Program-made: the position numbers and the translations under genes
DNA from: Neglectibacter timonensis
GTDB lineage: Bacteria; Bacillota; Clostridia; Oscillospirales; Acutalibacteraceae
Reading direction: 5' to 3'
Length of the DNA: 64,000 nucleotides
NCBI RefSeq assembly: GCF_900048895.1
Contig: NZ_LT160635.1
Coordinates: 169,439-233,438 of the forward strand
Part shown: positions 5,914 through 54,339 of the stretch, in pieces
Numbering within the stretch: position 1 is the first letter of the stretch
Layout: every line of letters starts with the position of its first letter
Notes under the pieces: model-generated
Seen by the model: the letters and a program-made list of their open reading frames with translations, nothing else
What the model was told of the DNA's origin: nothing
Databases searched by the model: none

Positions 5914-6834
5914 ATGAAGCCGGATCAGGAGAGGCCGGAGGAATATAAAATGCGGCTGGAAATCGCCCTGAAGGCCGCAAAAATCTGTGTTTTTGAAGTG
6001 GATATCCCCCGGCAGGCCTATATCTATTTTTTCAACGCATGGGATATTTTTCACGTATCCGATGAAAAAATACTGAAGGATGTTTCCGAATTTGCGTGCT
6101 TGAATCCGGAGGATTATCAAAAGGCGATTTCTGACTATTTTTCCCACCCAGGCGACCAAGAAGCGATCGATGAGGCGTTTCGGAACATCTACAGCGGCCT
6201 TCCTGCCTCGTATGAGGCGCGGATGAGGGCGGGGGGATCCTCATATCGCTGGTGCAGGATTGACGCGACCCCGGTACTGCAGGACGGCGTTCCCGTCAGG
6301 ATGATCGGAGTGATTACCGATATCGACAAGCTCAAGCAGGAAACCTTTGCCTTGGAAAAAGCTGTCATGCTGGACAGCTTTACCGGACTTTACAACAAGA
6401 AAAGGTTTATAGAATTGTCTGAACGGATATTGACGGAGCATCAGGATCAGAGCCATGCGCTGCTTCTGCTGGACATAGATAATTTTAAGCAGATCAATGA
6501 TACTCTCGGCCACCAGGTAGGGGATCAAGTCCTCCGGCTGGTTTCAGAAATGCTGAGGGAGGCTTTCCAGGAGAGGGATATCGTCGGGAGGTTCGGCGGC
6601 GATGAATTTGTGGTTTTGTGCAGGAATCTGACAAATTGGGAATGGCTGGTTCAAAAGCTGGAAGCCATTCTTTGCTGCGGAGAGGTTAGGGGAATCGTCT
6701 GCACCAACAGTGTGGGGATCGCGCTCTTTCCCGGGGACGCGGCGAATTTTTATCAGCTGCTGGAAAATGCGGATGTAGCCTTGTATCAATCAAAGCAGCG
6801 CAAGCGCGCCTATACGTTCTATACCAAGGAATAG
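5914..6834 (+). CDS. PAS-GGDEF diguanylate cyclase
   Basis: A 306-residue cytoplasmic protein: PAS/PAC sensor (about 10-135, ending in the WCRIDATPVLQDG...GVITDID pattern), a short linker helix, and a GGDEF domain (about 145-300) with LTGLYNKK-like entry (FTGLYNKKRF), substrate loop LLLDIDNFKQINDTLGH and an intact GGDEF active site (RFGGDEFV). It should make cyclic-di-GMP from two GTP. The inhibitory I-site RxxD is not conserved (QxxD at that position), so product inhibition is probably lost. No transmembrane helix: the signal is intracellular. Start chosen for the GGGGGGAG site before ATG 5914. Confidence 0.87.
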   Translation: MKPDQERPEEYKMRLEIALKAAKICVFEVDIPRQAYIYFFNAWDIFHVSDEKILKDVSEFACLNPEDYQKAISDYFSHPGDQEAIDEAFRNIYSGLPASYEARMRAGGSSYRWCRIDATPVLQDGVPVRMIGVITDIDKLKQETFALEKAVMLDSFTGLYNKKRFIELSERILTEHQDQSHALLLLDIDNFKQINDTLGHQVGDQVLRLVSEMLREAFQERDIVGRFGGDEFVVLCRNLTNWEWLVQKLEAILCCGEVRGIVCTNSVGIALFPGDAANFYQLLENADVALYQSKQRKRAYTFYTKE

Positions 6835-10442: not shown

Positions 10443-11663
10443 TTACCTTTCTGTAATTAAATTTGACGTGCATATTTTCATATGGTTATTCACCGTTAGA
10501 ACACCCCAAGTTTTTTTGTTGGCAGGTGAAGCAGGTGGTATAAAATTAGCTTCTGCAATTATATTACTTTCAATTTTCCCTAAATTGGTTATGCTATAAC
10601 CGTTTTGAGAGCCAAATCCAAACATATTTCTTCCTACAAACGTTCCTGCTTTACTTTCAAAATTTCCTAATGTAGATATTGCAACAGCGTCAATCAGCTC
10701 TGGCTGCATATGTATATAACAAGCAAGCACAAGCATTTCTTTCTGCGGGTGCATGCATATATTTATGACTTGTGACGCTACGCGCTTTGCAAGGGGAATT
10801 ATATTTTTCTCGTTCTTTTTCACAGAAACGCTAAAAGCAGTAGAATAATTTCCCATTGCCCCTTGTCTGTAACATTTTGTCTGATTACGAATATCGGCTG
10901 CAATAACCACCTTATTTGTATTCTCTTCCAACATCATTTTTGCAATCAGATAGTCATTTACAGTAACGCTATGTTGTTTGCATAAAGTCTGTATTTCTTC
11001 TAACTCATAATTGCAAACGGTGAAAATATCCCGTTTTATTTTGCATTTTTGAATATAGGCTCTTTCAAATACGCTATATTCCCCATATGTAACCTGCTGT
11101 TTCTCTTTTTTCCGTTTCCTATTTGCGTCGCCTACAATCAATTTACTGATAAGCGGCAAGTCGCTATTTGAGGGAAGATCGTTTAAGCCTTGAATTAAGC
11201 ATTCCGGCGCAAATTGCGGCATTACCCCGTTAGCATAATGCTCTGCGAATTCCTCTGCTAGTTGTAAAAGCCCTCTGCCGTCACACAAAAGATGGTGGGC
11301 AATAAAAAATATTTGAAATTCATTTTCATTTGGATAAACCACCACTTTTAGCAGACATTCTTTCTTGACATTCCACCCACGGACAGATATTTCTTCATAA
11401 TCTTGTTGCCACAAAGCAACTTCGTCCTTTACCAACACTGGAATATTCAAACAATCTTGTATTTGATAATATAATCTGCCAGTGTCCGTTTCCTCTGCAA
11501 TTAAGCTTTGCAGAAACGGGTGTGCTTTTTGAAGCGTGTCTACGCTTTGTCTTAGCTGTCTTTCATCATAATTGCTTTCTATTTTTGCCATAATTCCAAA
11601 GTGCATATTAGGACACATAAAATGCGCACGTTCTGTATACACATAATTTTTAACCGATTTCAT
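10443..11663 (-). CDS. Condensation-domain / acetyltransferase-like protein
   Basis: A 406-residue member of the CoA-dependent acyltransferase/condensation superfamily: HHLLCDGRG (about residue 125) is the HHxxxDG active-site motif, and the two-lobed size fits PapA/alcohol-acetyltransferase-like proteins rather than a modular peptide synthetase. The second-lobe segment VAISTLGNFESKAGTFVGRNMFGFGSQNGYSITNLGKI resembles the latch region. Substrate unknown. ATG 11663 has GGAGAAAA upstream and overlaps the previous gene by 14 bp. The whole operon is markedly AT-rich compared with its surroundings, suggesting acquisition. Confidence 0.7.
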   Translation of the reverse strand: MKSVKNYVYTERAHFMCPNMHFGIMAKIESNYDERQLRQSVDTLQKAHPFLQSLIAEETDTGRLYYQIQDCLNIPVLVKDEVALWQQDYEEISVRGWNVKKECLLKVVVYPNENEFQIFFIAHHLLCDGRGLLQLAEEFAEHYANGVMPQFAPECLIQGLNDLPSNSDLPLISKLIVGDANRKRKKEKQQVTYGEYSVFERAYIQKCKIKRDIFTVCNYELEEIQTLCKQHSVTVNDYLIAKMMLEENTNKVVIAADIRNQTKCYRQGAMGNYSTAFSVSVKKNEKNIIPLAKRVASQVINICMHPQKEMLVLACYIHMQPELIDAVAISTLGNFESKAGTFVGRNMFGFGSQNGYSITNLGKIESNIIAEANFIPPASPANKKTWGVLTVNNHMKICTSNLITER

Positions 11664-20374: not shown

Positions 20375-22918
20375 TCACTGGGGAGGGAGGTCCTTCAGGC
20401 TGGACTCGTCCGCCGCAACCTTGACCCTGCCGCTGGCCAGCAGGGAGAGAAAGGCCTCTACCAGGCGGGGATCGAACTGCTTTCCGGCTTCCTCCCGGAG
20501 GATTTCCATCACCCGCTTCAGGGGGATGCCGGGCTTGTAGCAGCGCTTGGAGACCATGGCGTCGAAGGAATCCGCCACACAGAGGATTCTGGCGGTGAGG
20601 GGGATGTTTTCCCCGGCGATCCCCCTGGGGTAGCCTCCGCCGTCGTACCGCTCGTGGTGGCCGGTCACCGCGGGGATGACGTAGTCCAGGGAGGGAAGGT
20701 GCTTGATGATGCCGATGGAGGCCTCCACGTGGCCCTTGACCACGCCGAATTCCTCCTCCGTCAGCCGGCCCGGCTTATTGAGGATGCTTTCCGGAATCCC
20801 AATTTTTCCCACGTCATGCAGCAGCGCCGCCTGCCGCAGCATTTCGATGGTGTCCTGGTTCATGCCCAGGGCCTCCCCCAGGGAGGTGGCATAGTAGGCC
20901 ACGTTGTTGGAATGGCGGAAGGTGTAATGGTCCTTGGTGTCGATGGCCGCCGTCAGGGCGAACACCGTGGATTCGTATTCCTGATAGATGTACTTCGGCG
21001 CGCCGGATTCCTCCAGTTTTTTGACGCCGTTTACGGTGGTGTCGAAGACCCGGATGGCGTTTTTCCCGCTGCGCTTGGCATGGTAGACGGAGAGGTCCAC
21101 ATTGTCCAGCAGTTCCTTGGGGGTGGAAGCCCCGTAGGGGTAGGCGCTGATTCCCGCGCTGATGGTCAGGCGCTTGATGGAGTATTCCCCGCCGCTTTCG
21201 TTCAGGCTGTAGATCTGGCGGCTGATGGATTCCGTCAGCTTTTTGGCGGCCAGCACGTCGTAATGGGGCAGCAGGATTGCAAATTCCTTGCCGCTGTACC
21301 TGGCCGCCACGCCGTTTTCCCCAATGCTGGCGGTGATGACCCTGGCGATGCGCTGCAGGGCCCTGTCGCCCTCCGCCATGCCGTACAGCTGGTTGTAGAG
21401 CTTGAAGTCGTCCACGTTGATCAGCACCAGCACCAGGGAGGATTTTTTGCAGGAGAGGAAGAGCTCCTCCATCTTGGCGTTGAAATGTTTCCTGTTGTAG
21501 AGCCCGGTCAGCTCGTCGGTGACGGCTTCCCGGTAGGCCTGCTCGTAGAGCATGGAGTTTTTGATGGCGATGGACGCCACGGAGGCCAGGGCCGCCAGAA
21601 AGGCCACGTCGTCCGCGCTGATACGGCTTTTCCCGTTTTTATGGGAGAGCAGGATGATGCCCACCAGCTCCCCCTGGTCCTTCAGGGGCTGGATGTATTC
21701 CACTCCCAGGCCGGCAAGCAGCTTTTTTTCGGAATCCCACATGGCCTTATAGGCCACGCTGTAGCGGAACTCCTTCAGGAACAGGCCATCGTCCCCTTCC
21801 TGAAGCCGGGCTACAATGGGGCTGTCTGCCCGCAGGAAAAAGGAATTGTCCGCAAGGGGCTTGTCCGTATGGACGGTGGAAAAGGGCGCGTCCCTGTGGT
21901 CCTGCATGCAGATGTAGACGGAATCCGCCTCGGTGGAGGCTTTGACGGCCCTGGTGATCTCCTCGTAGATGTCCCGGATCCGCAGACTTTTGGAAACCGT
22001 GAGGCTGAACTGCTGCAGGCATTCCTGCTTCATGCGGTCCTCCTTGATGAACACGGCGTTGAGGAATTTCTTCCACACAAGCATGAACAGCAGGGAGACG
22101 ATGAGGAACAGGCAGCCCAGCACCAGGGTGGAATTGCTGCCGCCTAGCCGGGGGAAATACGCCTTCAGGAAGGAGAGGAACCGCGGGCTCAGGTTATAGA
22201 ACAGGATGACCGAGGCGATCAGCGAGGCGCCGTAGCACACAGCTTCGCTGGTGAGCATCTTCAGCCGGAACAGCCGCCGTTTTGTCAGGGCGTAGAACAT
22301 GAGCCCCGCGTTGAGCAGGCAGCAGAGGATGTCGATGGGGAAGCCCTTCAGGGCGGGGATCAGCAGGGCCAGGTTGCCGCTGAACATCAGCACAATGCCC
22401 GCCAGGGTGGGCTCGATCTGCTTGCGGAAAACAGGGTCCTTTTTGCAGTTGGTCACAATGATGTAGATCATGTGGAACATGATGCCCGCCGCAATGGCAA
22501 ACAGCACGCCCACGGTCCAGCTCATCTCATAGACAAAAACGGCGTTTCCGTCTACCAGGACCAGGTCCGGCCATTTCAGGAAAATGCCGGTGGGGATATT
22601 GGCCACAAACCCGGCGGTGAGCAGCAGGAACCAGAACTTGCAGAAGCCCGGCCTGCGCTGCCCGGAAAAGGCGTTGACAAAGTAGAACAGCGCGTAGGCC
22701 AGATAGAGCAGGCCGCCCAGGGAGACATGGTACCAGAACTGATAGGAGGGCCAAAGCTGAATCCGCATAAAGAAGGAGCCGCCCGTCCACACCATGGAGG
22801 CCAGGATCACAAAGAGGTAGGAGGTGACGATCCGGTTTTTCTTGGCCGCCAGGAAGACCAGGAACAGGAAGGTGTAGCAGGCAAGGGCGATCACCGGGAT
22901 ATAATCGAAAGCGCCCAT
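20375..22918 (-). CDS. 7TM-GAF-GGDEF-HD-GYP cyclic-di-GMP phosphodiesterase
   Basis: An 847-residue membrane sensor: about seven transmembrane helices (1-230, HisKA_7TM-like), one more hydrophobic segment near 270-290, a GAF domain (about 310-460), a GGDEF domain (about 470-625) and an HD-GYP domain (about 650-830). The GGDEF site is degenerate (YSGKEFA), so that domain probably senses GTP or is structural. HD-GYP is intact: LLHDVGKIGIP and GHHERYDGGGYPRG. Net activity should be cyclic-di-GMP breakdown. Its ATG shares one base with the stop of the GH3 gene (TGATG), so it is tightly coupled to GH3 and the methyltransferase-like gene. Confidence 0.88.
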   Translation of the reverse strand: MGAFDYIPVIALACYTFLFLVFLAAKKNRIVTSYLFVILASMVWTGGSFFMRIQLWPSYQFWYHVSLGGLLYLAYALFYFVNAFSGQRRPGFCKFWFLLLTAGFVANIPTGIFLKWPDLVLVDGNAVFVYEMSWTVGVLFAIAAGIMFHMIYIIVTNCKKDPVFRKQIEPTLAGIVLMFSGNLALLIPALKGFPIDILCCLLNAGLMFYALTKRRLFRLKMLTSEAVCYGASLIASVILFYNLSPRFLSFLKAYFPRLGGSNSTLVLGCLFLIVSLLFMLVWKKFLNAVFIKEDRMKQECLQQFSLTVSKSLRIRDIYEEITRAVKASTEADSVYICMQDHRDAPFSTVHTDKPLADNSFFLRADSPIVARLQEGDDGLFLKEFRYSVAYKAMWDSEKKLLAGLGVEYIQPLKDQGELVGIILLSHKNGKSRISADDVAFLAALASVASIAIKNSMLYEQAYREAVTDELTGLYNRKHFNAKMEELFLSCKKSSLVLVLINVDDFKLYNQLYGMAEGDRALQRIARVITASIGENGVAARYSGKEFAILLPHYDVLAAKKLTESISRQIYSLNESGGEYSIKRLTISAGISAYPYGASTPKELLDNVDLSVYHAKRSGKNAIRVFDTTVNGVKKLEESGAPKYIYQEYESTVFALTAAIDTKDHYTFRHSNNVAYYATSLGEALGMNQDTIEMLRQAALLHDVGKIGIPESILNKPGRLTEEEFGVVKGHVEASIGIIKHLPSLDYVIPAVTGHHERYDGGGYPRGIAGENIPLTARILCVADSFDAMVSKRCYKPGIPLKRVMEILREEAGKQFDPRLVEAFLSLLASGRVKVAADESSLKDLPPQ

Positions 22919-44210: not shown

Positions 44211-44494
44211 CGAGATACCTCCCAAAATAGATTCCATTCCTATTAGTAGAAAATGGTACTTCTATTTTAGTGAACTGATTCCACAAAGAAAGAAATGTGA
44301 CATCATTTTTTCTATTAATTTGTAATTTTTTGTCAAAATAATGTGAGGAGAGGCGGTTTTCTGTAGTTTAAGAAGGGAAAATGGGGAAAAAGGTAAAAAA
44401 GAGCCCCCGCTCAGGTGCGGGGGCATGGGGAAGGAAAAGCGCCTGCGGCACGGCCGCCATGGGAGGGAAAACATCATGGGGCCGGGACTGCCCG

Positions 44495-47206
44495 TCAGGG
44501 GGAAAGAAACCTGCGCAGCTCCTCTTCCGGCATGGGCCTGGCGTAAAAATAGCCCTGGATGTAATGCACGCAGGATTTGGCGATGGCCTGCTGCTCGGCC
44601 CGGGTTTCCACGCCTTCCGCCACAACCGACAGGCCGTTGATGGCAGCCATTTTGACAATGGATTTCAACAGCGCATCCTGCTTGGGGCTGGTCAGAATCT
44701 GCCTGGTCAGGGAGCGGTCGATTTTGATGATGTCCGCGGGGAGGTTGGACAGGTAGTTGAGGCTGGAATACCCCACGCCGAAGTCGTCCAGCGCAATATG
44801 TACGCCGGCCTGCCGGAGTTTTTCCAGGGCCTGCGCCGCCTGGTCGATGGACTGGATCAGGACGCTCTCGGTGATTTCCAGCGTCACAAGCCGGGGGTCG
44901 ATGCCGGTAGAGCGGATCAGGTTCAGCAGGTGGCCGGCGCTGTTTCCCACCAAAAGCTGCTGCACGGAGAGGTTGACGCCCATGCGTGTGAGGCCCAGCG
45001 CTTCGCCGTGTTCGCGCATGAACAGGCAGGCCCTGCGGAGCACGTAATCGCCCAGCTCTTCCACAATGCCGTTGCGCTCCGCCAGGGAGATGACCTGGCC
45101 AGCGGAGAAAAAGCCGCCCTTTCCGTCGGGCAGGCGCGACAGCGCCTCAGCCGCAGTGTACCGGTTCTCACAAAGCCGCATAATCGGCTGGTACCAGACC
45201 TCCAGCGTCCCGTCCTGAATGGCCTCCTTCAGCCGGCGGAGGATATCGGCCTCCGTATGGATCATTTCATCCAGCTGGCCGTTATAGACGGTAACCACCC
45301 GGTCAGATTCCTTGGCAAAGCGCAGGGCGGATTGGATGTGGTCCAGCAGCTCGCTGGGCGTTTTGCCGTGTTCCGGATACATACAGGCGGAGATGCGGAC
45401 CTGCAGGGTGAAGGAGAGGGCGCCGGCTACCACCGGTTCGGCAAACAGGCTTTGCAACCGGTCGGCAAAAGAAGCCGACCCTTCCCCAGACAGGGAGACG
45501 CCCAAAAACACGTCGCCGTTGATGCGGTACAGGTACGAGCCGAAGGGGCGCGAGAGGCGGCGCAGGACCTCATGCAGAATCTCATCCCCGATTTCGGCGC
45601 TGAACAGCTCGTTGTACTGGCTGAAGGAGCAGATATCCACACAGAAAAGGCTGAACTGCCTCTTCTTATCATAAGAGATCAGCATGTTCGTGTCCCGGAG
45701 AAATTTCAGCCGGTTGCCCACGGAAAAGACCGGGTCGGAATAGGCCAGCTGTTCCACCTGCCTGCGGTAACGGTTGAAGGTTTTGGACAGCTCCATCATC
45801 TCCAGGTCCGTATATTCGTCAAAGACCACGTCGCTCTTTCCCTCGATGAGCTGCCGGCACTTTTCCGTGAGCATCCGGACGGGGGATTCCGCCGCCACCT
45901 GCCGGTAGTAGGCGCGGATCAATTCTGAAATCTGGTCCGCCGCCCCGCCCTGGTCCGGCGTGCAGCAGAGGTACTGGTACCGCGCCATCAGAAAGCTCTT
46001 TTCCCCGCCGATGCGCACCTGCAGCAGAAGCTCCAAAGAGAGGCCCTTGGCAAAGTCGTCCCGCTTCTGCTCGTCCATCTCCTCCCGCAGCGCCACCAGA
46101 TAGCTGCTCTCGTCCAGCCTGCCCGCCAGGAACGGGCTGCGGATGTAGTCGTTCAGCCGGGGCCGGATGCTTTGCAGATACTCCTCCTCTTTGTCCGGGC
46201 CGATCAGCCGGACTGCCTGGGCGTAGCCCTCCAGGGAGAAGAAAAACAGCGTGACCGGAACGCCGCCCTCGTGAAGCCAGCCGTCCAGGGCGGCGGTAAA
46301 GCCCTTGCGGCTGCAGAGGCCGGTGGCCTGGTCCATGCGGCCCGCCTCTGCCAGCAGGCGGTTTTGCCGGAGGGTTCTGCGCAGCAGGAAGAGAAGCGAC
46401 AGCAGCAGAACCTGGATCAGGATGCAGAGCAGGGCCAGGCCCAGCCGCTGCCCGACGCTGAGCCACCCGGACCGGGGCTGGATGCTGAGCGTCCATTGGG
46501 TGGGCAGGTTGAAGGCCGTTTTCTGGGCCTGGGAAAAATCGGCGCCTGCCTGGGAGCTTGCTACAATTTCCTTGTTTCCGTTCTGCGGCTCCACCCGCCA
46601 GAGCTCATAATCATACCCCTGGGCGGACAGGTTTTCCAGGCCCAGCTGCCCCAGTACATAGTCCCGGTCCAGCGCCACGGCCACCTGGCCCAGGTATGCG
46701 CCCTCCTCCACAATGGGCTGCAAAAACAGGAACACCTCCTGCCCCTCGGGGTCGTTCTGCAGCACCACGGGACCCTCCACCACCAGCTCCTTGACCACCT
46801 TGGACATGGTGTAGATATAGGAAAAATCCCGCAGCTCTTTTCCGTCGAGGCTTCCGTATTTGTCCTGGGGCAGTATCAGCCCCAGGATGTCCCCCTCAAA
46901 CAGGGCGACCATACAGACCTCGGGCCGCTGCAGCAGGGGGACGGCAGCGGTTTCAAACCAAGCGGAGGCATCCGCCTGGGCAGACTGCGCCGTATGCACG
47001 GTCTGCGCCAGGGCGGTGGCCTCATTGACGGTTCCCTGCAGCTGCAGGACAATTTTCTCCCTGTAATAGAACAGGATGTTTTCCGCTTCCCTCTGCCGTT
47101 CGTCCACGATGGCGCCGCGGACCAAAAGAATGGACGTCAAGCTGACTGCAAAGACCAGCAGAACAGCGAAAATGTATGCGGATGCCCGCTGAATCCGTTT
47201 TTTCAT
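44495..47206 (-). CDS. Membrane GGDEF-GGDEF-EAL cyclic-di-GMP phosphodiesterase
   Basis: A 903-residue protein: transmembrane helix (about 5-28), extracytoplasmic sensor (about 30-250), second helix (about 262-284), two degenerate GGDEF domains (about 300-430, site replaced by GRLDESSYLV; about 485-620, site RINGDVFLGV) and an EAL domain (about 640-895). The EAL domain looks active: AAEALSRL, MGVNLSVQQL, LEITESVLI, LDDFGVGYSSL, IKIDRS, AEGVET and QGYFYARPM. Net role: cyclic-di-GMP hydrolysis controlled by an external signal. Last gene of the five-gene operon; starts 8 bp after the cyclase gene. Confidence 0.88.
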   Translation of the reverse strand: MKKRIQRASAYIFAVLLVFAVSLTSILLVRGAIVDERQREAENILFYYREKIVLQLQGTVNEATALAQTVHTAQSAQADASAWFETAAVPLLQRPEVCMVALFEGDILGLILPQDKYGSLDGKELRDFSYIYTMSKVVKELVVEGPVVLQNDPEGQEVFLFLQPIVEEGAYLGQVAVALDRDYVLGQLGLENLSAQGYDYELWRVEPQNGNKEIVASSQAGADFSQAQKTAFNLPTQWTLSIQPRSGWLSVGQRLGLALLCILIQVLLLSLLFLLRRTLRQNRLLAEAGRMDQATGLCSRKGFTAALDGWLHEGGVPVTLFFFSLEGYAQAVRLIGPDKEEEYLQSIRPRLNDYIRSPFLAGRLDESSYLVALREEMDEQKRDDFAKGLSLELLLQVRIGGEKSFLMARYQYLCCTPDQGGAADQISELIRAYYRQVAAESPVRMLTEKCRQLIEGKSDVVFDEYTDLEMMELSKTFNRYRRQVEQLAYSDPVFSVGNRLKFLRDTNMLISYDKKRQFSLFCVDICSFSQYNELFSAEIGDEILHEVLRRLSRPFGSYLYRINGDVFLGVSLSGEGSASFADRLQSLFAEPVVAGALSFTLQVRISACMYPEHGKTPSELLDHIQSALRFAKESDRVVTVYNGQLDEMIHTEADILRRLKEAIQDGTLEVWYQPIMRLCENRYTAAEALSRLPDGKGGFFSAGQVISLAERNGIVEELGDYVLRRACLFMREHGEALGLTRMGVNLSVQQLLVGNSAGHLLNLIRSTGIDPRLVTLEITESVLIQSIDQAAQALEKLRQAGVHIALDDFGVGYSSLNYLSNLPADIIKIDRSLTRQILTSPKQDALLKSIVKMAAINGLSVVAEGVETRAEQQAIAKSCVHYIQGYFYARPMPEEELRRFLSP

Positions 47207-47213
47207 ATGCGCC

Positions 47214-48770
47214 TCATTTCCGCTGGATATGGTAATACCCTTTTCCGTTTTGCTTGACATAGTAGAGCGCCTCGTCCGCGTCGGCAATCAGCTGGGAAAG
47301 CGTCATGCCCGGGCGGAAGATGGAAACCCCGATGCTGCACTGGACCGGGATGCTCTGCCCGCCGGACTGAACGTTTGTCTGGAGCCGGAGCACCAGTTCG
47401 TCCAGCACGCCGCGCAGCTCGGCTTCGTCGTCCAGGCCGGTCAGCAGCAGAACGAATTCGTCCCCGCCGTACCGTCCCACCACGCCGTCGTATTTTTTCT
47501 CGTACTCCCGGAGAATGTACCCGATGCTTTTCAGGGCGATATCGCCGCCGGCATGGCCGCGGCTGTCGTTGAGGTGCTTCAGGTTATCCATGTCCACAAA
47601 GCACAGGGCCTTTGTCAAAGACGGCTCGGCTTTTTTCAGCAGGGCGTCCGCCTGGTTTAAGAAGACGGACCGGGTGACCGTGCCGGTGAGGCTGTCGGTA
47701 AGGCCGTCGCTGGTCAGGCGCAGGACCTCCTGAAAATCTGCGGTCTCCGGCCGTTCATCCCGGTAAATCCTGTTTTCCAGCTCCTCGATGGAGTGCACCA
47801 GCAGGTCCACCACCTTCATCTGGACGGAGAGGTACCGGCGCACCAGCCACAAAAGGCCGACGCACAGGAACAGGGTAAGCCCCATGACCAGCACCAGGGC
47901 CGGGAGGATTTCCTCATAACAGGACCAGAAATTTACAGAGCACAAAATATCCCAGCCCGTATTTTCCACCCGCTGGTAGGTGGTGTAGTACAGGCTTCCG
48001 CTGCGCAGGCTCCAGAAAGCGCCGGGCTGGGCGGCCAGAAGACGCTCCTCCAGCTGGTCCGCCGTGACGCCGAACAGCACGCTGCTTTTCAGCACGTCCG
48101 TGATGGAATCCCCATAGGGAAGCCCTTCCGTGGAGGACATGACCTGCCCCTGGGTGCCGATCAGCGTCGCCTCGGAGCCGCCATCCCCGGCGGACTTCTG
48201 CAGGATGTCCACCACTTCGTCAAAGTAGATGGCGCAGAACAGGCACCCGGTGATCCCGCCCCGTTCGTCCAGCAGCGGGACTGCCACGGTGTAGTTCAGC
48301 GTCGCGCCGTCCGCGCCCGCGGCAAAGCTGTCCGTCACCTGCAGCTGCCCGGTGGAGAAAAGCCGCTGCATGTAATCCCGGCTGGCAAGGCTGGCGGGCT
48401 CCGCGCCGTCGGAATAGACGATGATATCGGAATCCACATAGCAGAGCATCATGTACCCGAAATAGGGGCTCATCTGGTCCAGCTTTTTCACCTTGTCGAT
48501 GGGAGGAAGCCCCGGATCGTAGAACTCCGGAAGGCTGGCCAGGGATTCCAGCAGGCTCACCGTGCCCTCCACCCGCTGGGTGACCTGCGCACGGCTTGCC
48601 GCCAGGGACACCTCGGCGTTGGCCCGCATCCGGCTCACGGAGAGGACCGCGCCGCCCAGCAACACCACAAGCATGACCAGCCCGCAGAATAAGATGCTGT
48701 AACGGGTGATGGGGGCAAATGAGATATCCCATTTCCCGTCTGCTTTCTTTTGGTTTTCTTTTGTCTTCAT
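47214..48770 (-). CDS. Cache-GGDEF membrane diguanylate cyclase
   Basis: A 518-residue protein: transmembrane helix (about 22-45), double-Cache extracytoplasmic sensor (about 48-290, with FGYMMLCYVDSDIIVYSDG and YTTYQRVENTGWDILCSV), second helix (about 300-322), linker coiled coil and GGDEF domain (about 355-515) with LTDSLTGTVTR, FVDMDNLKHLNDSRGH and an intact RYGGDEFVLLL site. I-site RxxD absent. It makes cyclic-di-GMP, opposite to the EAL protein encoded immediately downstream, so the pair sets a local level from external cues. GGAGACCTCC lies before ATG 48770. Confidence 0.9.
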   Translation of the reverse strand: MKTKENQKKADGKWDISFAPITRYSILFCGLVMLVVLLGGAVLSVSRMRANAEVSLAASRAQVTQRVEGTVSLLESLASLPEFYDPGLPPIDKVKKLDQMSPYFGYMMLCYVDSDIIVYSDGAEPASLASRDYMQRLFSTGQLQVTDSFAAGADGATLNYTVAVPLLDERGGITGCLFCAIYFDEVVDILQKSAGDGGSEATLIGTQGQVMSSTEGLPYGDSITDVLKSSVLFGVTADQLEERLLAAQPGAFWSLRSGSLYYTTYQRVENTGWDILCSVNFWSCYEEILPALVLVMGLTLFLCVGLLWLVRRYLSVQMKVVDLLVHSIEELENRIYRDERPETADFQEVLRLTSDGLTDSLTGTVTRSVFLNQADALLKKAEPSLTKALCFVDMDNLKHLNDSRGHAGGDIALKSIGYILREYEKKYDGVVGRYGGDEFVLLLTGLDDEAELRGVLDELVLRLQTNVQSGGQSIPVQCSIGVSIFRPGMTLSQLIADADEALYYVKQNGKGYYHIQRK

Positions 48771-48828
48771 GTGGAGGTCTCCTTCCAGGATACGGACCGC
48801 CGGTCCAAAGGGCCGGAATGGCCGAAGG

Positions 48829-50298
48829 CTATTTCCAGAGGGACGCGCCGTCATAGACGTTCATGGCGGTGTCCCAATAGCCCAGCCTCCGGCATTCCGA
48901 GACGATGAGGCGGCGGATCTGTTCAAATATGGCGGCTGTTTTCCCGGCGAACAGGCCGCCGTCGGGCAGTTGTTCCACGGCTTCGCGGCATGCCCGGTAA
49001 ATTTCCAGGTTCTGGGGGTTTATGTCACGGCATACCAGTTTCGGAATACTTCTGCCGATGCTGAAATTCCTGGCCAATATCCCATAGATTTCCCGCAGCG
49101 CGTCGTAGCCGATGTGTTCTGTGATAAAGTCCAGCAGGGTGCGGGGGATCAGCTGATGTTCGTAAGGCTGTTCCTCCTGCCGGCGGAGCGCCGCCTGAAG
49201 GCGCCTTGTGTCTTCGGGCGTTATCAAGGCGGCCGCGTGGGCTGCGGCAGGCTCCACCGTCAGGGTCAGCAGCTCCAGACTGTCCAGGTACCGCCGCACA
49301 TGGCAGGCGATGGATTCGGGGGAAATCCGGATCCTCTGAAGCGCCGTCAGATCCATCTCCACTGAAATGCCCCGCCGGGGCGCCGCCGTCACCACACCCC
49401 AGTCCCGCAGCATCTTCACCGCTTTGACGGAGGTATCCCGGCTCACGCCGTAGGTTTTCTGAAGCTGGTCATGGGTGGGCAAATGGTCGCCGGGCTGGTA
49501 ACGGCCGATGGCGATGAGGCCCAGCAGGTCCAGGCACATGGTGGAATACCGCTCTTGGGCCAGGCTGAGCTGTTCTCCCAATTCCTCCGCCTCTGCCAGC
49601 ATGGGACAGGGGGAGAGAAGCTGATGGAACTGCTGCCCTTCCGCCTGCTCCGCAATGATCCGGTATTGGCGGAAGACGGCGTCCAGCTGCACCTGCTCCG
49701 GCACGCCGCCTGCCTTCGCCGCCTGCAGCAGCGCTTCGATATGGGAACGGTATTGCGCCCGGTCTTCCAGGGAACTCCGGGGCGGCTCCTTTCCCCGAAA
49801 GCCCAGGCTGTCCACAACCCGCAGGAGCAGCTCGTTCTCATTTCTGGCGATGAAAAAGCGCCCCAGCCTGCTGGAGAGCCGCCAGAAATCCTCGGGACGG
49901 CTTGGGTCCATCTGAGCGAGAATCCTCTCGGGCGTGCGCCAGTCTCCGCCGGTACACAGCCGCAGCCCCCGCAGGTAGATGGGGCGGCAGAGCAGGTCCG
50001 CCGTACGCATCAAATCGTCCACCTGGGCCGGGTCCGCCCTTCTCGCGTTCTGCAGCGCCTGCCCCTGGGGCAGGGGGGAGGCGGAGAGGACAACGGGCCG
50101 TTTCCTGGGCATTATCTCCAAAAACCCGTTCTGCTCCAGCAGCTCCAGCGCCCGGCGAACCGTCCGTTCCGAGGTCCCCAGTTCCCTGCACAGCACGGAC
50201 CTGCCGGGAAGCCTGGCGCCCACAGGAAGGAGGCCGGATTCGATTTTGTTTTTGAGCTGCCGGTAGGCCCGCTCATATTGAATCACGCCGCTTTTCAT
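48829..50298 (-). CDS. Regulator with two GntR winged-helix domains
   Basis: A 489-residue protein with a GntR-type HTH at the N-terminus (about 5-70, YRQLKNKIESGLLPVGARLPGRSVLCRELGTSERTVRRALELLEQNGFLEI) and a second one in the middle (about 250-315, LLGLIAIGRYQPGDHLPTHDQLQKTYGVSRDTSVKAVKMLRDWGVVTA), each followed by a helical region (about 85-245 and 330-485). This is an internal duplication of a FadR/HutC-like layout. It sits in the operon between the solute-binding lipoprotein and the diguanylate cyclase and probably regulates that operon or a metabolic target. Confidence 0.78.
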   Translation of the reverse strand: MKSGVIQYERAYRQLKNKIESGLLPVGARLPGRSVLCRELGTSERTVRRALELLEQNGFLEIMPRKRPVVLSASPLPQGQALQNARRADPAQVDDLMRTADLLCRPIYLRGLRLCTGGDWRTPERILAQMDPSRPEDFWRLSSRLGRFFIARNENELLLRVVDSLGFRGKEPPRSSLEDRAQYRSHIEALLQAAKAGGVPEQVQLDAVFRQYRIIAEQAEGQQFHQLLSPCPMLAEAEELGEQLSLAQERYSTMCLDLLGLIAIGRYQPGDHLPTHDQLQKTYGVSRDTSVKAVKMLRDWGVVTAAPRRGISVEMDLTALQRIRISPESIACHVRRYLDSLELLTLTVEPAAAHAAALITPEDTRRLQAALRRQEEQPYEHQLIPRTLLDFITEHIGYDALREIYGILARNFSIGRSIPKLVCRDINPQNLEIYRACREAVEQLPDGGLFAGKTAAIFEQIRRLIVSECRRLGYWDTAMNVYDGASLWK

Positions 50299-50312
50299 TC
50301 CCGTACCCGCTT

Positions 50313-51662
50313 TCAGTCTTCTTTGTTTCCGCTTTCCTCATCGGACGCACGCCCCTGTTCCAGGGCGGTGTTGCAGCTTTCGTCGATGGCCGCCGCCGCC
50401 TCCTCCGGCGATTTTTCCCCGGTGAGCAGATCGTTGATGTTCCGGTAAAACACATCCCGGACGCCCTGCCAGTTGAGGCTGCCGCGGATATTGTCCACGG
50501 TATCGGCGGTGTTTTCCCCGTAGGCTTTCAGCATCCAGATCTCATCCTGGTACTGCTGGGTGACGGATTTGCTCACCGGAAGGGTGCCCAGCGTATACTT
50601 CATCGCCTCCCCGTCCGACAGGAGGAAGCTGAGAAAGTCCTTGGCAACCTGTATTTTTGTTTCATCCCCGTTGTCAAACACGCAGAAGCCGTTGCTGGAA
50701 GTGGTGCAGAAACCCGCGCCCGAAGGGTCGGGGAAGTTGGCGGTGAACACGTCTACCCCCTTGTTTCTGGCGTCCCACAGGTTGGTCAGGTTTCCCACGC
50801 ACATGGCCAGCTGCTGGTTGTAGAACAGGTTGACGCAGTCCAGCAGTTCCAGGTTCTCCGCCCCTTTGGGAGTGATCCCCTGTTGGTCCATCTCCTTGAT
50901 CCAGGCAAGGGCCTGTATCCCCTCCGGCGTGTTCACCGAAAAATTTCCGTTTTCATCGTAGAGAGGGCAGCCGTAGGCCCGCAGCAGGGTCATGATGTGG
51001 CTGTCCCCCTGGCTGTTGGCGGCGTACATCATAAAAGCGAAGGTGTTTTCATCGGTCAGGGATTCCTTGAGCCTTTGGCAGATGAGGTTGAATTCCTCCG
51101 TGGACCAGTGGGCCACGGAATCGTCCTGGGGAATGTATTCCTCCAGGCCTGCGGCCTGCATCATGGTCCGGTTTACCATCAGCGTATTTTGCAGCTGGTG
51201 GTAGGGCAGGGTATATACCTTCCCGCCGACGGTGTTCTGCTTCCAGATGGATTCATCCACGTCGCTGCGCAGCTCCGGGGTGATCATGTCGTCCAGGGGG
51301 ACCAGCCATCCCCGCTTCACATACAGCGGCACGTTCCAGGAGCCTGCGAAGAAGATATCGGCGGCCTCCGGCGTTCCGTACTTGTCGGCCAGCTGCGCCT
51401 GTTCGTCCAGATAGTCGTAACGGCTGATGGAAAATTCCACGTCGTACTTGTCATACTGCGCCTGGAAACGTTCCGCCGCAGCCGTGAGCATGTCGTAAAC
51501 CTCGGCCTCGCCCGCCCCGGGGATGTTCCCAAGCCCAATGGGCGGCGTTTTGACGGTGAGCGTCACCTTCTCCGGCTCCGCCGGTTCCTGCGCCCGGCAG
51601 CCCGCCGGGGAGAGGCAGAGCGCCGCCGCCAGCAGGGCGCAGAGCAGGTTTCTTTTCCTCAT
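50313..51662 (-). CDS. Extracellular solute-binding lipoprotein (family 1)
   Basis: A 449-residue ABC-type sugar-binding protein. Signal peptide with lipobox LSPAGC (Cys22), then the family-1 fold: QAQYDKYDVEFSISRYDYLDEQAQLADKYGTPEAADIFFAGSWNVPLYVKRGWLVPLDDM, GGKVYTLPYHQLQNTLMVNRTMMQAAGL, DPSGAGFCTTSSNGFCVF and the DFLSFLLSDGEAMKYTLG end typical of carbohydrate binders. No permease is present; its ATG overlaps the stop of the hybrid kinase gene (ATGA), so it is better seen as a periplasm-side sensor feeding that kinase. Confidence 0.87.
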   Translation of the reverse strand: MRKRNLLCALLAAALCLSPAGCRAQEPAEPEKVTLTVKTPPIGLGNIPGAGEAEVYDMLTAAAERFQAQYDKYDVEFSISRYDYLDEQAQLADKYGTPEAADIFFAGSWNVPLYVKRGWLVPLDDMITPELRSDVDESIWKQNTVGGKVYTLPYHQLQNTLMVNRTMMQAAGLEEYIPQDDSVAHWSTEEFNLICQRLKESLTDENTFAFMMYAANSQGDSHIMTLLRAYGCPLYDENGNFSVNTPEGIQALAWIKEMDQQGITPKGAENLELLDCVNLFYNQQLAMCVGNLTNLWDARNKGVDVFTANFPDPSGAGFCTTSSNGFCVFDNGDETKIQVAKDFLSFLLSDGEAMKYTLGTLPVSKSVTQQYQDEIWMLKAYGENTADTVDNIRGSLNWQGVRDVFYRNINDLLTGEKSPEEAAAAIDESCNTALEQGRASDEESGNKED

Positions 51663-53794
51663 GAAATTCCCTCCCGTTCCTTGATTGTCGCAATCTTTTT
51701 CAGCAGCAGCTTGATGTCCAGCGGCTTGGTGGCCACGTCGTCCATGCCGGAGGCAAGGGCTTTTTCCACGTCCTCGCTGAAGGCGTTGGCGGTCATGGCG
51801 ATGATGGGGACCGTGGACGCGTCCGGCCGGGACAGCGCACGGATGCGCCGCGCCGCCTCGTTGCCGTCCATCACCGGCATCTGGACGTCCATCAAAATCA
51901 GGTCAAACCAGGAAGGCGCGCTGGCTTCAAATGCTTCCAGGGCCTCCTGCCCGTTCCGGGCCTCCGTCAACTGGCAGCCCTGCTCTTCCAGAATGGACAC
52001 CACGATCATCCGGTTGATCTCATTGTCCTCCACGGCCAGGATGCGTTTTCCATTCAGGGACCAGGCCGCGTCCGGGGAATCCTCCGCCGGGCCCTTCTCT
52101 CCGGAGGGCGCCGCCGCGGGGAAGGGGATGGAAACGGTGAACACCGTCCCCTTTCCCAGCTGGCTTTCCACCGAGATGGAGCCGCCCATCTTCTCCGCCA
52201 GGGTCTTGCTCAAGGTTGTGCCCAGCCCGGTGCCGTTCTGGGAGGCGACGCGCCGCTCCTGCTCAAATGGCGTCCAGATGCGCTGCAGAAATTCCGGGCT
52301 CATGCCGCAGCCCGTATCGGCCACCTGAAATACGGTGCGGACCAGGCCGCCGGCCGGCTCTTGGTTCACGGTGAGGGAAACCTCACCGCCCTCGGGCGTG
52401 AATTTCACCGCGTTGCCCAGCAGGTTCGTGAGAATCTGCTTGACGCGCAGGGCGTCCCCCTCCACCAGGGGCTGCTTCAGGCCGCCGCAGTCCAGCCGGA
52501 ACTGCAGGCCCTTGTTTTCCACCTGGTTTTCCAGCAGAACCTGCACCTCTTCCATCAGAAGCTTCAAATCCATCTCTTTGGGATAGAGCTCCAGCTGCCC
52601 GCTCTCAATTTTCGACATGTCCAGAACGTCGGTGATGACGCTCTGTAAAAACGACGCGGATACCTCCGCTTTTTTTAAGTATCCCTTTAGCTTTTTGGGA
52701 TCGTCCAGACTCTGGCGCATGAGGTACTGCAGCCCTACAATGCCGTTGAGGGGCGTGCGGATTTCATGGCTCATGTTGGCTAAGAAGGCGGATTTTGCCT
52801 GCTCCGAGGCCCGGGCGACCTTTGCCGCGTTCACCGTGTGGTAGATGAAATAAGTGACCAGCAGAATCAGCGCGCCCAGCACAAGGAAAAAGGGGAGGGA
52901 ACGGGAGATCAGCGTCTTCACCTGATCCTCCGTCACCTGGGTGGAGACCCGCACCACCAGATACCACTCGTTCCCGGCATGATGGTCCAGGGATTGGAAC
53001 AGGGCGTAATAGGAGCTTCCGTCCAGGCTGTATTCCACGAACAGGCTTTCCCCCTGCTCCACCGCCTGGAGGCAGGCTTCCAGCGAGCCTCCGTTTTTGA
53101 ACTGGGCGCGGGCCAGGGGTGTCAGAAAATTGTTGTCCGGGGTGCTGTACTGCTGGCTCGCCGTAATGATGTCGCCGGATTTTTGCATGACGACGGCGAT
53201 TCCCTGTCCGTCAAAGCTCTCCAGCCGCATTTGATCGGCAATTTCCTCGATGGACACCAAACCCACCGCGCCGTTGATCTCTTTCTCCCCGCAGAGGACC
53301 GGTTCGGCCAGACGCACGCCGTAAACCAGGAACTCGCCCCATTTTTCCCGGCTGACCTCGTCGTACCGGATGGCGAAACGGCCGTCCGCACGCTGGAATT
53401 CATCCGCCCAGGGCATATCCTGAAGGGAGCTTTTCAAATAGGAGCTGTTGTACGCCTCGCCGTCCGTGGTGATGAGGTAGAGCGTGTGAAAGGAGGTGGT
53501 TTTGGCCTCCACCCCCAGGTTATAGAGTACGTCCTCAAACCGGCTCTCCCTGGCGGCATTAATCCGGTTGAGGATCACCTGCAGGTACTCGGTCTTGCTG
53601 TCCATCTGGTTGATGATATTCAGGTGGTCGTGATCCGCAATCTGTTCCATAAAGGACAGCGTCGTGGAATATACCGCCTGCTCGACGCTTTGATAGTACA
53701 GCCAGTAGCCGCCGCCCAGGACGCAGAAGGAGACCAGCAGAATCAGCGCCCATACCCGCAGGCTGCGCCTGTTTGCCTTCAAAGTCCTGCTCAT
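51659..53794 (-). CDS. Hybrid sensor histidine kinase
   Basis: A 711-residue protein: transmembrane helix (about 12-33), Cache-like extracytoplasmic sensor (about 35-290), second helix (about 298-320), HisKA domain with phospho-acceptor in LANMSHEIRTPLNGIVG (about 345-360), HATPase with N-box TNLLGNAVKFTPEGG and G-boxes VADTGCGMSP and GTGLGTTLSKTL, and a C-terminal receiver domain (about 580-700) with LILMDVQMPVMDG. No HPt or DNA-binding partner is adjacent, so the phosphate output is unknown. First gene of the five-gene operon; GGGAGGCAGG precedes ATG 53794. Confidence 0.9.
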   Translation of the reverse strand: MSRTLKANRRSLRVWALILLVSFCVLGGGYWLYYQSVEQAVYSTTLSFMEQIADHDHLNIINQMDSKTEYLQVILNRINAARESRFEDVLYNLGVEAKTTSFHTLYLITTDGEAYNSSYLKSSLQDMPWADEFQRADGRFAIRYDEVSREKWGEFLVYGVRLAEPVLCGEKEINGAVGLVSIEEIADQMRLESFDGQGIAVVMQKSGDIITASQQYSTPDNNFLTPLARAQFKNGGSLEACLQAVEQGESLFVEYSLDGSSYYALFQSLDHHAGNEWYLVVRVSTQVTEDQVKTLISRSLPFFLVLGALILLVTYFIYHTVNAAKVARASEQAKSAFLANMSHEIRTPLNGIVGLQYLMRQSLDDPKKLKGYLKKAEVSASFLQSVITDVLDMSKIESGQLELYPKEMDLKLLMEEVQVLLENQVENKGLQFRLDCGGLKQPLVEGDALRVKQILTNLLGNAVKFTPEGGEVSLTVNQEPAGGLVRTVFQVADTGCGMSPEFLQRIWTPFEQERRVASQNGTGLGTTLSKTLAEKMGGSISVESQLGKGTVFTVSIPFPAAAPSGEKGPAEDSPDAAWSLNGKRILAVEDNEINRMIVVSILEEQGCQLTEARNGQEALEAFEASAPSWFDLILMDVQMPVMDGNEAARRIRALSRPDASTVPIIAMTANAFSEDVEKALASGMDDVATKPLDIKLLLKKIATIKEREGIS

Positions 53795-53936
53795 TTTCCT
53801 GCCTCCCCTCCTGTATGCCGCCTGTGCAAAGTAAAAAGTGCAATCTGGGAACCTATACAGACTAATTAACCCAAAAACCCCTGTCCCGCAGGCATATCCC
53901 AGAATTTTCAAAACTGGGTACTTCTGCAGTCTATTT

Positions 53937-53965
53937 ATTATAACATCTGTACTGCTGTTTGGCAA
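53937..53965 (-). promoter_or_regulatory. Promoter of the hybrid kinase/cyclic-di-GMP operon
   Basis: Minus strand TTGCCA (53965-53960), 17-bp spacer, TATAAT (53942-53937), giving a 5' leader of about 135 nt. The gap 53795-54114 holds no gene. Confidence 0.7.
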
Positions 53966-54114: not shown

Positions 54115-54339
54115 CTATGCGTTAACCTGCTTTTTCTCCGTTCTTCCCAAAAGATAATCCAACGAGACTTCAAAGACATCCGCAATTTTCAGCAGGATTT
54201 CCACTTTGGGTTCCCGCGTCATCAGCTCATAATTTTGATACGTCTTCTCGGTGATATCGCAATAGATTGCAACCTCCCGCTGGGTGAACCCTTTCTCTTT
54301 TCTGCATTGTTTTAACCGTTCTGCCAATATTTCTCTCAT
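54115..54339 (-). CDS. XRE-family HTH regulator
   Basis: A 74-residue repressor: LAERLKQCRKEKGFTQREVAIYCDITEKTYQNYELMTREPKVEILLKIADVFEVSLDYLLGR. Divergent from the small zinc-ribbon membrane protein gene at 54440 whose promoter carries two palindromes; it very likely controls that gene. Confidence 0.85.
   Translation of the reverse strand: MREILAERLKQCRKEKGFTQREVAIYCDITEKTYQNYELMTREPKVEILLKIADVFEVSLDYLLGRTEKKQVNA

Follow-up and report, generated by a model that had tools for sequence, protein, structure and literature searches.

A conserved five-gene cassette with an orphan binding lipoprotein, a hybrid kinase, c-di-GMP enzymes and a tandem GntR regulator in Neglectibacter timonensis and other Clostridia

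A 64,000-nucleotide stretch of the Neglectibacter timonensis genome (GCF_900048895.1, NZ_LT160635.1, positions 169,439-233,438), referred to below as the window, carries at 44495-53794 five minus-strand genes transcribed in the order hybrid histidine kinase (HHK), solute-binding lipoprotein (SBP), tandem GntR regulator, diguanylate cyclase (DGC) and cyclic di-GMP (c-di-GMP) phosphodiesterase (PDE). The explanation that we favour, with moderate confidence, is that these genes form a horizontally spread, self-regulated sensory cassette. What appears to be new is the combination of an SBP, an HHK, a DGC/PDE pair and a tandem GntR; SBP-coupled kinases and SBP-dependent c-di-GMP signalling are already known. 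In the following, L-numbers designate the genomic loci compared and G-numbers the genomes, G000 being that of the window and G470 being the same as G184.

The five genes, their families, the ATGA overlap of HHK and SBP (a gap of -4 bp) and the gaps of 14 (SBP/GntR), 58 (GntR/DGC) and 7 bp (DGC/PDE), which an original prediction made from the DNA letters had described, were all reproduced (Table 1). A TTG-started kinase open reading frame (ORF) of 768 aa, reaching 53965, was rejected as too long, and orthologues placed the start at the ATG at 53794. As had also been claimed, neither a permease nor an ATPase was found by Pfam among the five genes. The only receiver domain detected by Pfam in the five proteins is that of the kinase itself; a cognate response regulator is not encoded alongside. 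The one good promoter proposed ahead of the kinase stood up as well, and equivalent promoter-like sites were present at most of the orthologous loci compared, although none was found in the 75 bases scanned at L067. The promoter scan by itself is weak (7 sites in 11.1 kb, where shuffled sequences gave 3.4 on average), and terminator-like sites numbered 20 against 13.2 in shuffles.

Table 1. Features of the cassette in the window (window coordinates)
Feature	Positions	Strand	Basis or description
HHK, hybrid histidine kinase, 711 aa	51659-53794	-	Pfam; ATG start supported by orthologues
SBP, orphan solute-binding lipoprotein, SBP_bac_1 / SBP_bac_8	50313-51662	-	Pfam
Tandem GntR regulator, 489 aa, two winged helix-turn-helix (wHTH) plus all-helical (FCD-like) units	48829-50298	-	Pfam, AlphaFold, Foldseek, hhalign
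DGC, diguanylate cyclase with dCache_1-like sensor	47214-48770	-	Pfam, motifs
PDE, c-di-GMP phosphodiesterase, degenerate GGDEF plus EAL	44495-47206	-	Pfam, motifs
Promoter-like site TTGCCA-17-TATAAT, TG ahead of the -10 box	53937-53965	-	11/12 consensus positions
Element copy 1	53909-53931	-	begins 6 nt past the -10 box and covers the expected transcription start
Element copy 2, leader	53840-53862	-	contains the core AGGTDCCMAGA
Terminator-like hairpin, 8 GC pairs and T-rich tail	44403-44424	-	70 bp past the last stop

The cassette recurs in other genomes. A scan of genome contigs with the SBP gave 76 loci, 11 of them at 58-83% identity and the next at 29% or less. The order of the window was found again in Cuneatibacter caecimuris (L060), Candidatus Soleaferrea massiliensis (L061) and CE91-St43 (L062, where HHK and SBP were identified by tblastn, the longest-ORF annotation covering them with antisense frames), so that it is not confined to one strain; such confinement is what the original prediction had named as fatal to it. 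All five genes also lie together in Emergencia timonensis (L063, DGC-PDE-HHK-SBP-GntR) and Lactonifactor longoviformis (L065, HHK-SBP-DGC-PDE-GntR). DGC-PDE-HHK-SBP was observed at L064, and at L068 the tandem GntR is divergent from HHK-SBP. L070 has a broken SBP and no kinase match at the threshold used, with the start of a kinase-like frame still visible, followed by GntR-DGC-PDE; at L066, L067 and L069 HHK-SBP is present and the other three genes are not nearby. The tested flanking genes vary from genome to genome. The kept content in altered order argues for a functional unit, and the recurrence of five genes at L060-L063 and L065 is not expected of a chance grouping; a chance grouping of a single strain was therefore rejected. 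Two named strains carry the cassette, C. caecimuris DSM 29486 (with a frameshifted kinase) and L. longoviformis DSM 17459.

The expectation that the genes stay together in Oscillospiraceae held only in part: the order is kept in other genomes, but the cassette is not a family trait. An SBP match at E<=1e-20 was obtained in 7 of 397 genomes of the window's family, in all seven beside a kinase or kinase-like match, and only two of these are close SBPs, that of the window and that of G184 (60%). A further family survey matched 4 of 297 genomes, none of them new; the tandem GntR was detected at E<=1e-10 in none of 28 same-genus genomes, and a plasmid search gave one weak record only. Three hosts belong, according to NCBI, to Lachnospiraceae, Anaerovoracaceae and Clostridiaceae. 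Identity to the window exceeds that of RpoB for the Cuneatibacter module (72-82% vs 66%) and the CE91-St43 module (71-76% vs 68%), which suggests horizontal transfer, and the cassette would thus appear to have spread horizontally among Clostridia.

The SBP itself shows a cysteine after a signal-like stretch in 10 of 10 sequences examined. A permease-like gene was found within 5 kb at 0 of 16 distinct cassette-group loci, in a search in which unlinked permeases were not looked for and ATPases were looked for only inside the window, against 63 of 65 distant SBPs (22-29% identity). A kinase is nearby at 15 of the 16 loci, L070 being the exception, and at 1 of the 65. The 16 loci are the window, L048-L052 and L060-L070 (17 rows, L048 and L068 being the same; L053 was left out). 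The permease profile was custom-built from 32 seed matches, an earlier strict pattern having been too insensitive (19/65). Contig ends truncate some of the 16, with 791 bp left on one flank of L069, and they also lie close to both permease-free distant SBPs, at distances of 102 and 249 bp. Judged by its gene neighbourhoods, this SBP group is tied to hybrid kinases instead of permeases; homologues regularly beside ABC permeases, which the original prediction had set against itself, were not found, and a transport operon or ABC sugar importer was rejected. More distant HHK-SBP pairs, without the other three genes nearby, occur at L049-L052. At L049 the pair is followed by a REC-HD_5 protein, probably an HD-GYP, and L052, which was not typed with Pfam, looks similar.

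The kinase comprises, by Pfam, a weak dCache_1 match, HisKA, HATPase_c and a C-terminal receiver, and its H-box, N-box and receiver motifs are all present; no Hpt domain was found in it. A model of its sensor (predicted local distance difference test score, pLDDT, 84.2) gave Cache-type chemoreceptor sensor domains as best PDB matches. The SBP gene is thus adjacent to that of a kinase with an extracytoplasmic sensor domain, and this pair is kept throughout L060-L069 (with the kinase broken at L060 and L069). The DGC has a dCache_1-like sensor match below the Pfam cut-off, a highly conserved sensor region (mean column identity 77%) and an intact GGDEF motif, the latter found in 8 of 8 DGCs; the RxxD I-site pattern is absent from the DGC of the window. 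In the PDE, an N-terminal membrane sensor region without a Pfam match precedes a degenerate GGDEF, reading NGDVF, and an EAL domain with intact motifs. EAL patterns were fully matched in 5 of 8 PDEs (window, L060, L061, L062 and L070), those of L063, L064 and L065 each missing at least one. On the strength of these motifs, DGC and PDE are predicted active c-di-GMP enzymes in the window, in agreement with the maker-breaker pair first proposed. Since both carry their own N-terminal membrane sensor region and neither has a receiver domain, control of the two by phosphotransfer from the kinase is unsupported. The earlier idea of a self-contained signalling unit survives as to its conservation elsewhere, but needs correction in this respect.

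LuxP-LuxQ and TorT-TorS are couples of an SBP and a kinase, and neither is known to have an adjacent cyclase/phosphodiesterase pair or tandem GntR. A class of binding proteins and sensor kinases encoded close together is described in PMC11113362. In Ruminiclostridium cellulolyticum, CuaDSR likewise has a lipoprotein SBP gene beside that of a membrane sensor kinase, and the SBP CuaD binds the kinase CuaS and sharpens sensing (PMC10384115), which makes it a clostridial parallel for the activation of a kinase by its SBP, as may occur here. The cassette differs from it: CuaS has HAMP and a kinase domain, an AraC-type response regulator adjoins it, an importer is regulated, and the parts of that paper considered mention neither a c-di-GMP enzyme nor a tandem GntR (PMC10384115). 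STM1987, a dCache_1 c-di-GMP enzyme, likewise depends on a binding protein, ArtI, for its response (PMC8846402), and SBP-activated cyclases and phosphodiesterases are cited in PMC11113362; as far as the passages considered go, these units contain no hybrid kinase or GntR. No system combining such parts with a tandem GntR and a promoter element was found among the records listed by searches of the open-licence PubMed Central (PMC) literature, which agrees with the original statement that no described system of this composition was known.

Two other accounts of the signalling genes have to be weighed against a cassette in which the SBP serves the kinase. The SBP could still feed an importer encoded elsewhere, the signalling genes regulating uptake as CuaDSR does for CuaABC, and the control of that importer operon is a precedent (PMC10384115). 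However, the contrast in permease-like genes given above (0/16 vs 63/65), together with a kinase-SBP pair that is kept at loci whose tested flanks differ, makes this quite improbable. The genes could also share an operon and act separately, the kinase sensing through its dCache domain, DGC and PDE responding to other ligands and the SBP only buffering or scavenging. Every membrane enzyme does have its own conserved outer region, as the DGC sensor illustrates, and adjacent sbp and kinase genes can be unlinked (PMC11113362). The kinase-SBP pair is nevertheless the most constant part of the cassette and stands without the other three genes at L066, L067, L069 and L049-L052, so that we regard separate action as unlikely.

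The tandem GntR is a fused duplication of a wHTH-plus-helical unit. An AlphaFold model (8 sequences, mean pLDDT 74.8) contains two consecutive wHTH plus all-helical units, and comparison of N-half and C-half profiles with hhalign aligned 221 columns at E 7e-22, the helical parts by themselves giving E 5.6e-6. The best PDB matches by Foldseek were single-unit GntR regulators, several of the FadR/FCD kind (6az6, 9jpj, 6ep3, 2di3), over about 225 columns at E 2.6e-5 and weaker, with template modelling (TM) scores by target mostly of 0.3-0.5. Regulators of this kind are alike in having a wHTH followed by an all-helical domain, but in that subfamily each chain bears one wHTH unit and dimers form by association of chains; the matched chains are one unit of about 200-270 residues, whereas the cassette protein has two fused units. 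Its FCD domain stays below the Pfam curated cut-off (16.9 vs 24.3 bits) and no receiver domain was found in it by Pfam.

Neighbourhoods of tandem GntR homologues, whose inspection had been proposed with the original prediction, point the same way as the cassette. Among 51 tandem-GntR ORFs, which are those in the loci examined and no census, most genomes having been chosen for holding the cassette, a hybrid kinase lies no more than 6 kb away in 38 cases, a GGDEF/EAL gene in 26 and one or the other in 44. With cassette loci removed the counts were 32, 19 and 36 of 43, and when only the family-search genomes and that of the window were considered, again with cassette loci removed, 9 of 12 lay near an HHK or GGDEF/EAL gene. 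By the identical method, none of 29 control positions did. The control positions were given by an 11-base match in related genomes (the cassette-promoter match L215 being left out, and L221 and L228 contributing one position each of two), with a mean flank examined of 10.1 kb against 11.1 kb for the tandem GntRs. HisKA matches number 493 in 12 genomes, about 1 per 113 kb. Neither a kinase nor a c-di-GMP gene lies within 6 kb of the tandem GntR of L210. A relative of the window's tandem GntR, at E 4.5e-190 or better, was present in 12 of 12 searched genomes with a close SBP, several of the matches listed there being partial pieces.

A 23-base element, about CTGTATAGGTTCC[CA]AGA, lies downstream of the -10 box in the cassettes, in two copies in the window. 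In a leave-one-out test, 10 of 11 cassette loci had at most one control at or above their score, and L067 had 26; L070 stood outside this test. The matrix was built from 13 cassette sites picked by eye, the weak L062a site and the L197 site being left out. In eight further operons absent from the training set (L197-L204, same tandem-GntR subfamily), the best match always followed a -10-like sequence. Against 441 control upstream regions, six of these operons scored above all, one had 1 control at or above and one had 5; operon starts were picked after earlier matches were known (that of L198 lies inside an ORF), so that this test was not blind. The two best controls (15.7 and 12.4) sit upstream of other tandem GntR genes (L027 and L197). 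The top-scoring one, L027 10446, belongs to a tandem GntR from another subfamily. A chemoreceptor (MCP) gene adjoining the HHK-SBP pair of L067 is preceded by a weak match to the element, at 11505, which follows a -10-like box.

The tandem GntR may bind this element, whose placement at the transcription start suggests repression. The original prediction had made the double GntR the transcriptional arm of the kinase. This part needs correction: the protein has no receiver, and with an element after the -10 box, autoregulation of the cassette is probably the better description than a role as kinase output. A far-reaching version, in which tandem GntRs are a distinct regulator class of fused asymmetric FCD-like pairs dedicated to HHK/c-di-GMP cassettes, binding a start-site element and fed back by cassette output (c-di-GMP or a kinase-linked signal), is doubtful at present.

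The element could instead be a leader RNA structure or a part of an extended promoter, to which we accord a minor yet appreciable chance. Its position is within the transcribed leader or right where that leader begins, and several copies could by eye form a stem of 4-6 bp. The candidate arms pair in two different registers, however, and a conserved RNA stem was dropped for that reason; a known leader RNA was likewise rejected, no Rfam match being obtained in 4 sources searched. Moreover, all genomes with the element at a cassette promoter hold the tandem-GntR subfamily, although not always at the same locus (L064, L066, L069). The tandem GntR, a DNA-binding protein that accompanies the cassette at L060-L063, L065, L068 and L070, might alternatively be the output regulator of a distant regulon. 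Such a regulon is improbable, since the 3.67-Mb genome of the window contains the core AGGTDCCMAGA at two places only, one in the operon and one inside a putative ORF, in an exact search with one core form that misses variants such as copy 1 of the window.

For the self-regulated sensory cassette, the following sequence of events may be envisaged. The ligand-loaded SBP would dock on the dCache domain of the kinase and alter its activity, as in a three-component sensor. A phosphoryl group could then pass from the kinase receiver through a stand-alone Hpt protein to a response regulator encoded elsewhere; with a receiver but no Hpt in the HHK, and three stand-alone Hpt places in the window's genome (reading frames of 123-160 aa), such a relay is possible. 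DGC and PDE would be governed by stimuli perceived through outer sensor regions of their own, perhaps the same solute again, and would set c-di-GMP. The messenger would work through effectors such as a c-di-GMP-I riboswitch ahead of an S-layer-domain protein gene. One such riboswitch was found in the genome, outside the window (G000 C9:104659-104746), about 330 bases ahead of an ORF whose 2063-aa product has three SLH stretches; this protein is a candidate c-di-GMP-controlled surface protein and a plausible effector. The tandem GntR, finally, would bind the element and repress its own operon until some signal releases it.

Several observations weigh against this account. The dCache domain of the kinase has invariant residues of its own and may bind a ligand directly, and an sbp gene next to a kinase gene need not encode its partner, no interaction being reported for the AgtS and AruS pairings (PMC11113362). 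Profile comparison detected no relationship between the sensors of HHK and DGC or between those of DGC and PDE (probability about 2%), so that one SBP serving all three enzymes is unsupported; a shared sensor subfamily received no support from these comparisons, in which kinase and PDE were not compared. The transfer argument fails for Soleaferrea (module 75-84%, RpoB 77%), and Emergencia and Lactonifactor give no transfer signal (module 45-67%, RpoB 65-67%). The kinase is broken at L060, as it is at L069, and the SBP at L070, where the kinase is also affected, which indicates either that the cassette is decaying in some hosts or that assembly errors are present. Within 6 kb of the tandem GntR of L196 there is neither a kinase nor a c-di-GMP gene, and no tandem-GntR match was listed for G049, G204, G263 and G444, which hold the more distant HHK-SBP pairs. 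The element is lacking at the L067 kinase-SBP pair and gave no match at the matrix threshold used at L195 and L196, of the same tandem-GntR subfamily. Across 12 genomes, its core was no commoner than a reversed control, which implies that its place and not its number is the signal.

Additional arrangements of related genes were noted. At L200-L204 a second recurrent module consists of a GGDEF gene, a tandem GntR, a hybrid kinase, a gene of 621 to 655 aa and a second kinase, with a variant of the element; at L200 it was typed as including a REC-HD_5-GGDEF protein and an SBP with a 5'-nucleotidase C-terminal domain. At L197 the element separates a tandem GntR from the 1620-aa CheB-CheR-PAS hybrid kinase that follows it, and an SBP_bac_5 gene lies further on. 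A dense cluster in the window's genome (L012, G000 C13:172000-191500) combines a PAS kinase, a stand-alone Hpt, a REC-GGDEF-EAL protein, a tandem GntR, a PAS-GGDEF protein and a two-receiver hybrid kinase. Within the window, a 74-aa HTH_3 regulator gene at 54115-54339 (-) immediately precedes the operon promoter and shares its strand, and two more GGDEF domains are found outside the cassette, at 6367-6807 (+) and 21059-21526 (-).

To our knowledge, the outside signals that set c-di-GMP in such Clostridia are little worked out. The cassette offers a compact, testable unit of an SBP, a kinase, a cyclase, a phosphodiesterase, a regulator and a predicted operator, available in named strains, and the tandem GntR, which tracks hybrid kinases and c-di-GMP enzymes, could help to find more signalling cassettes.

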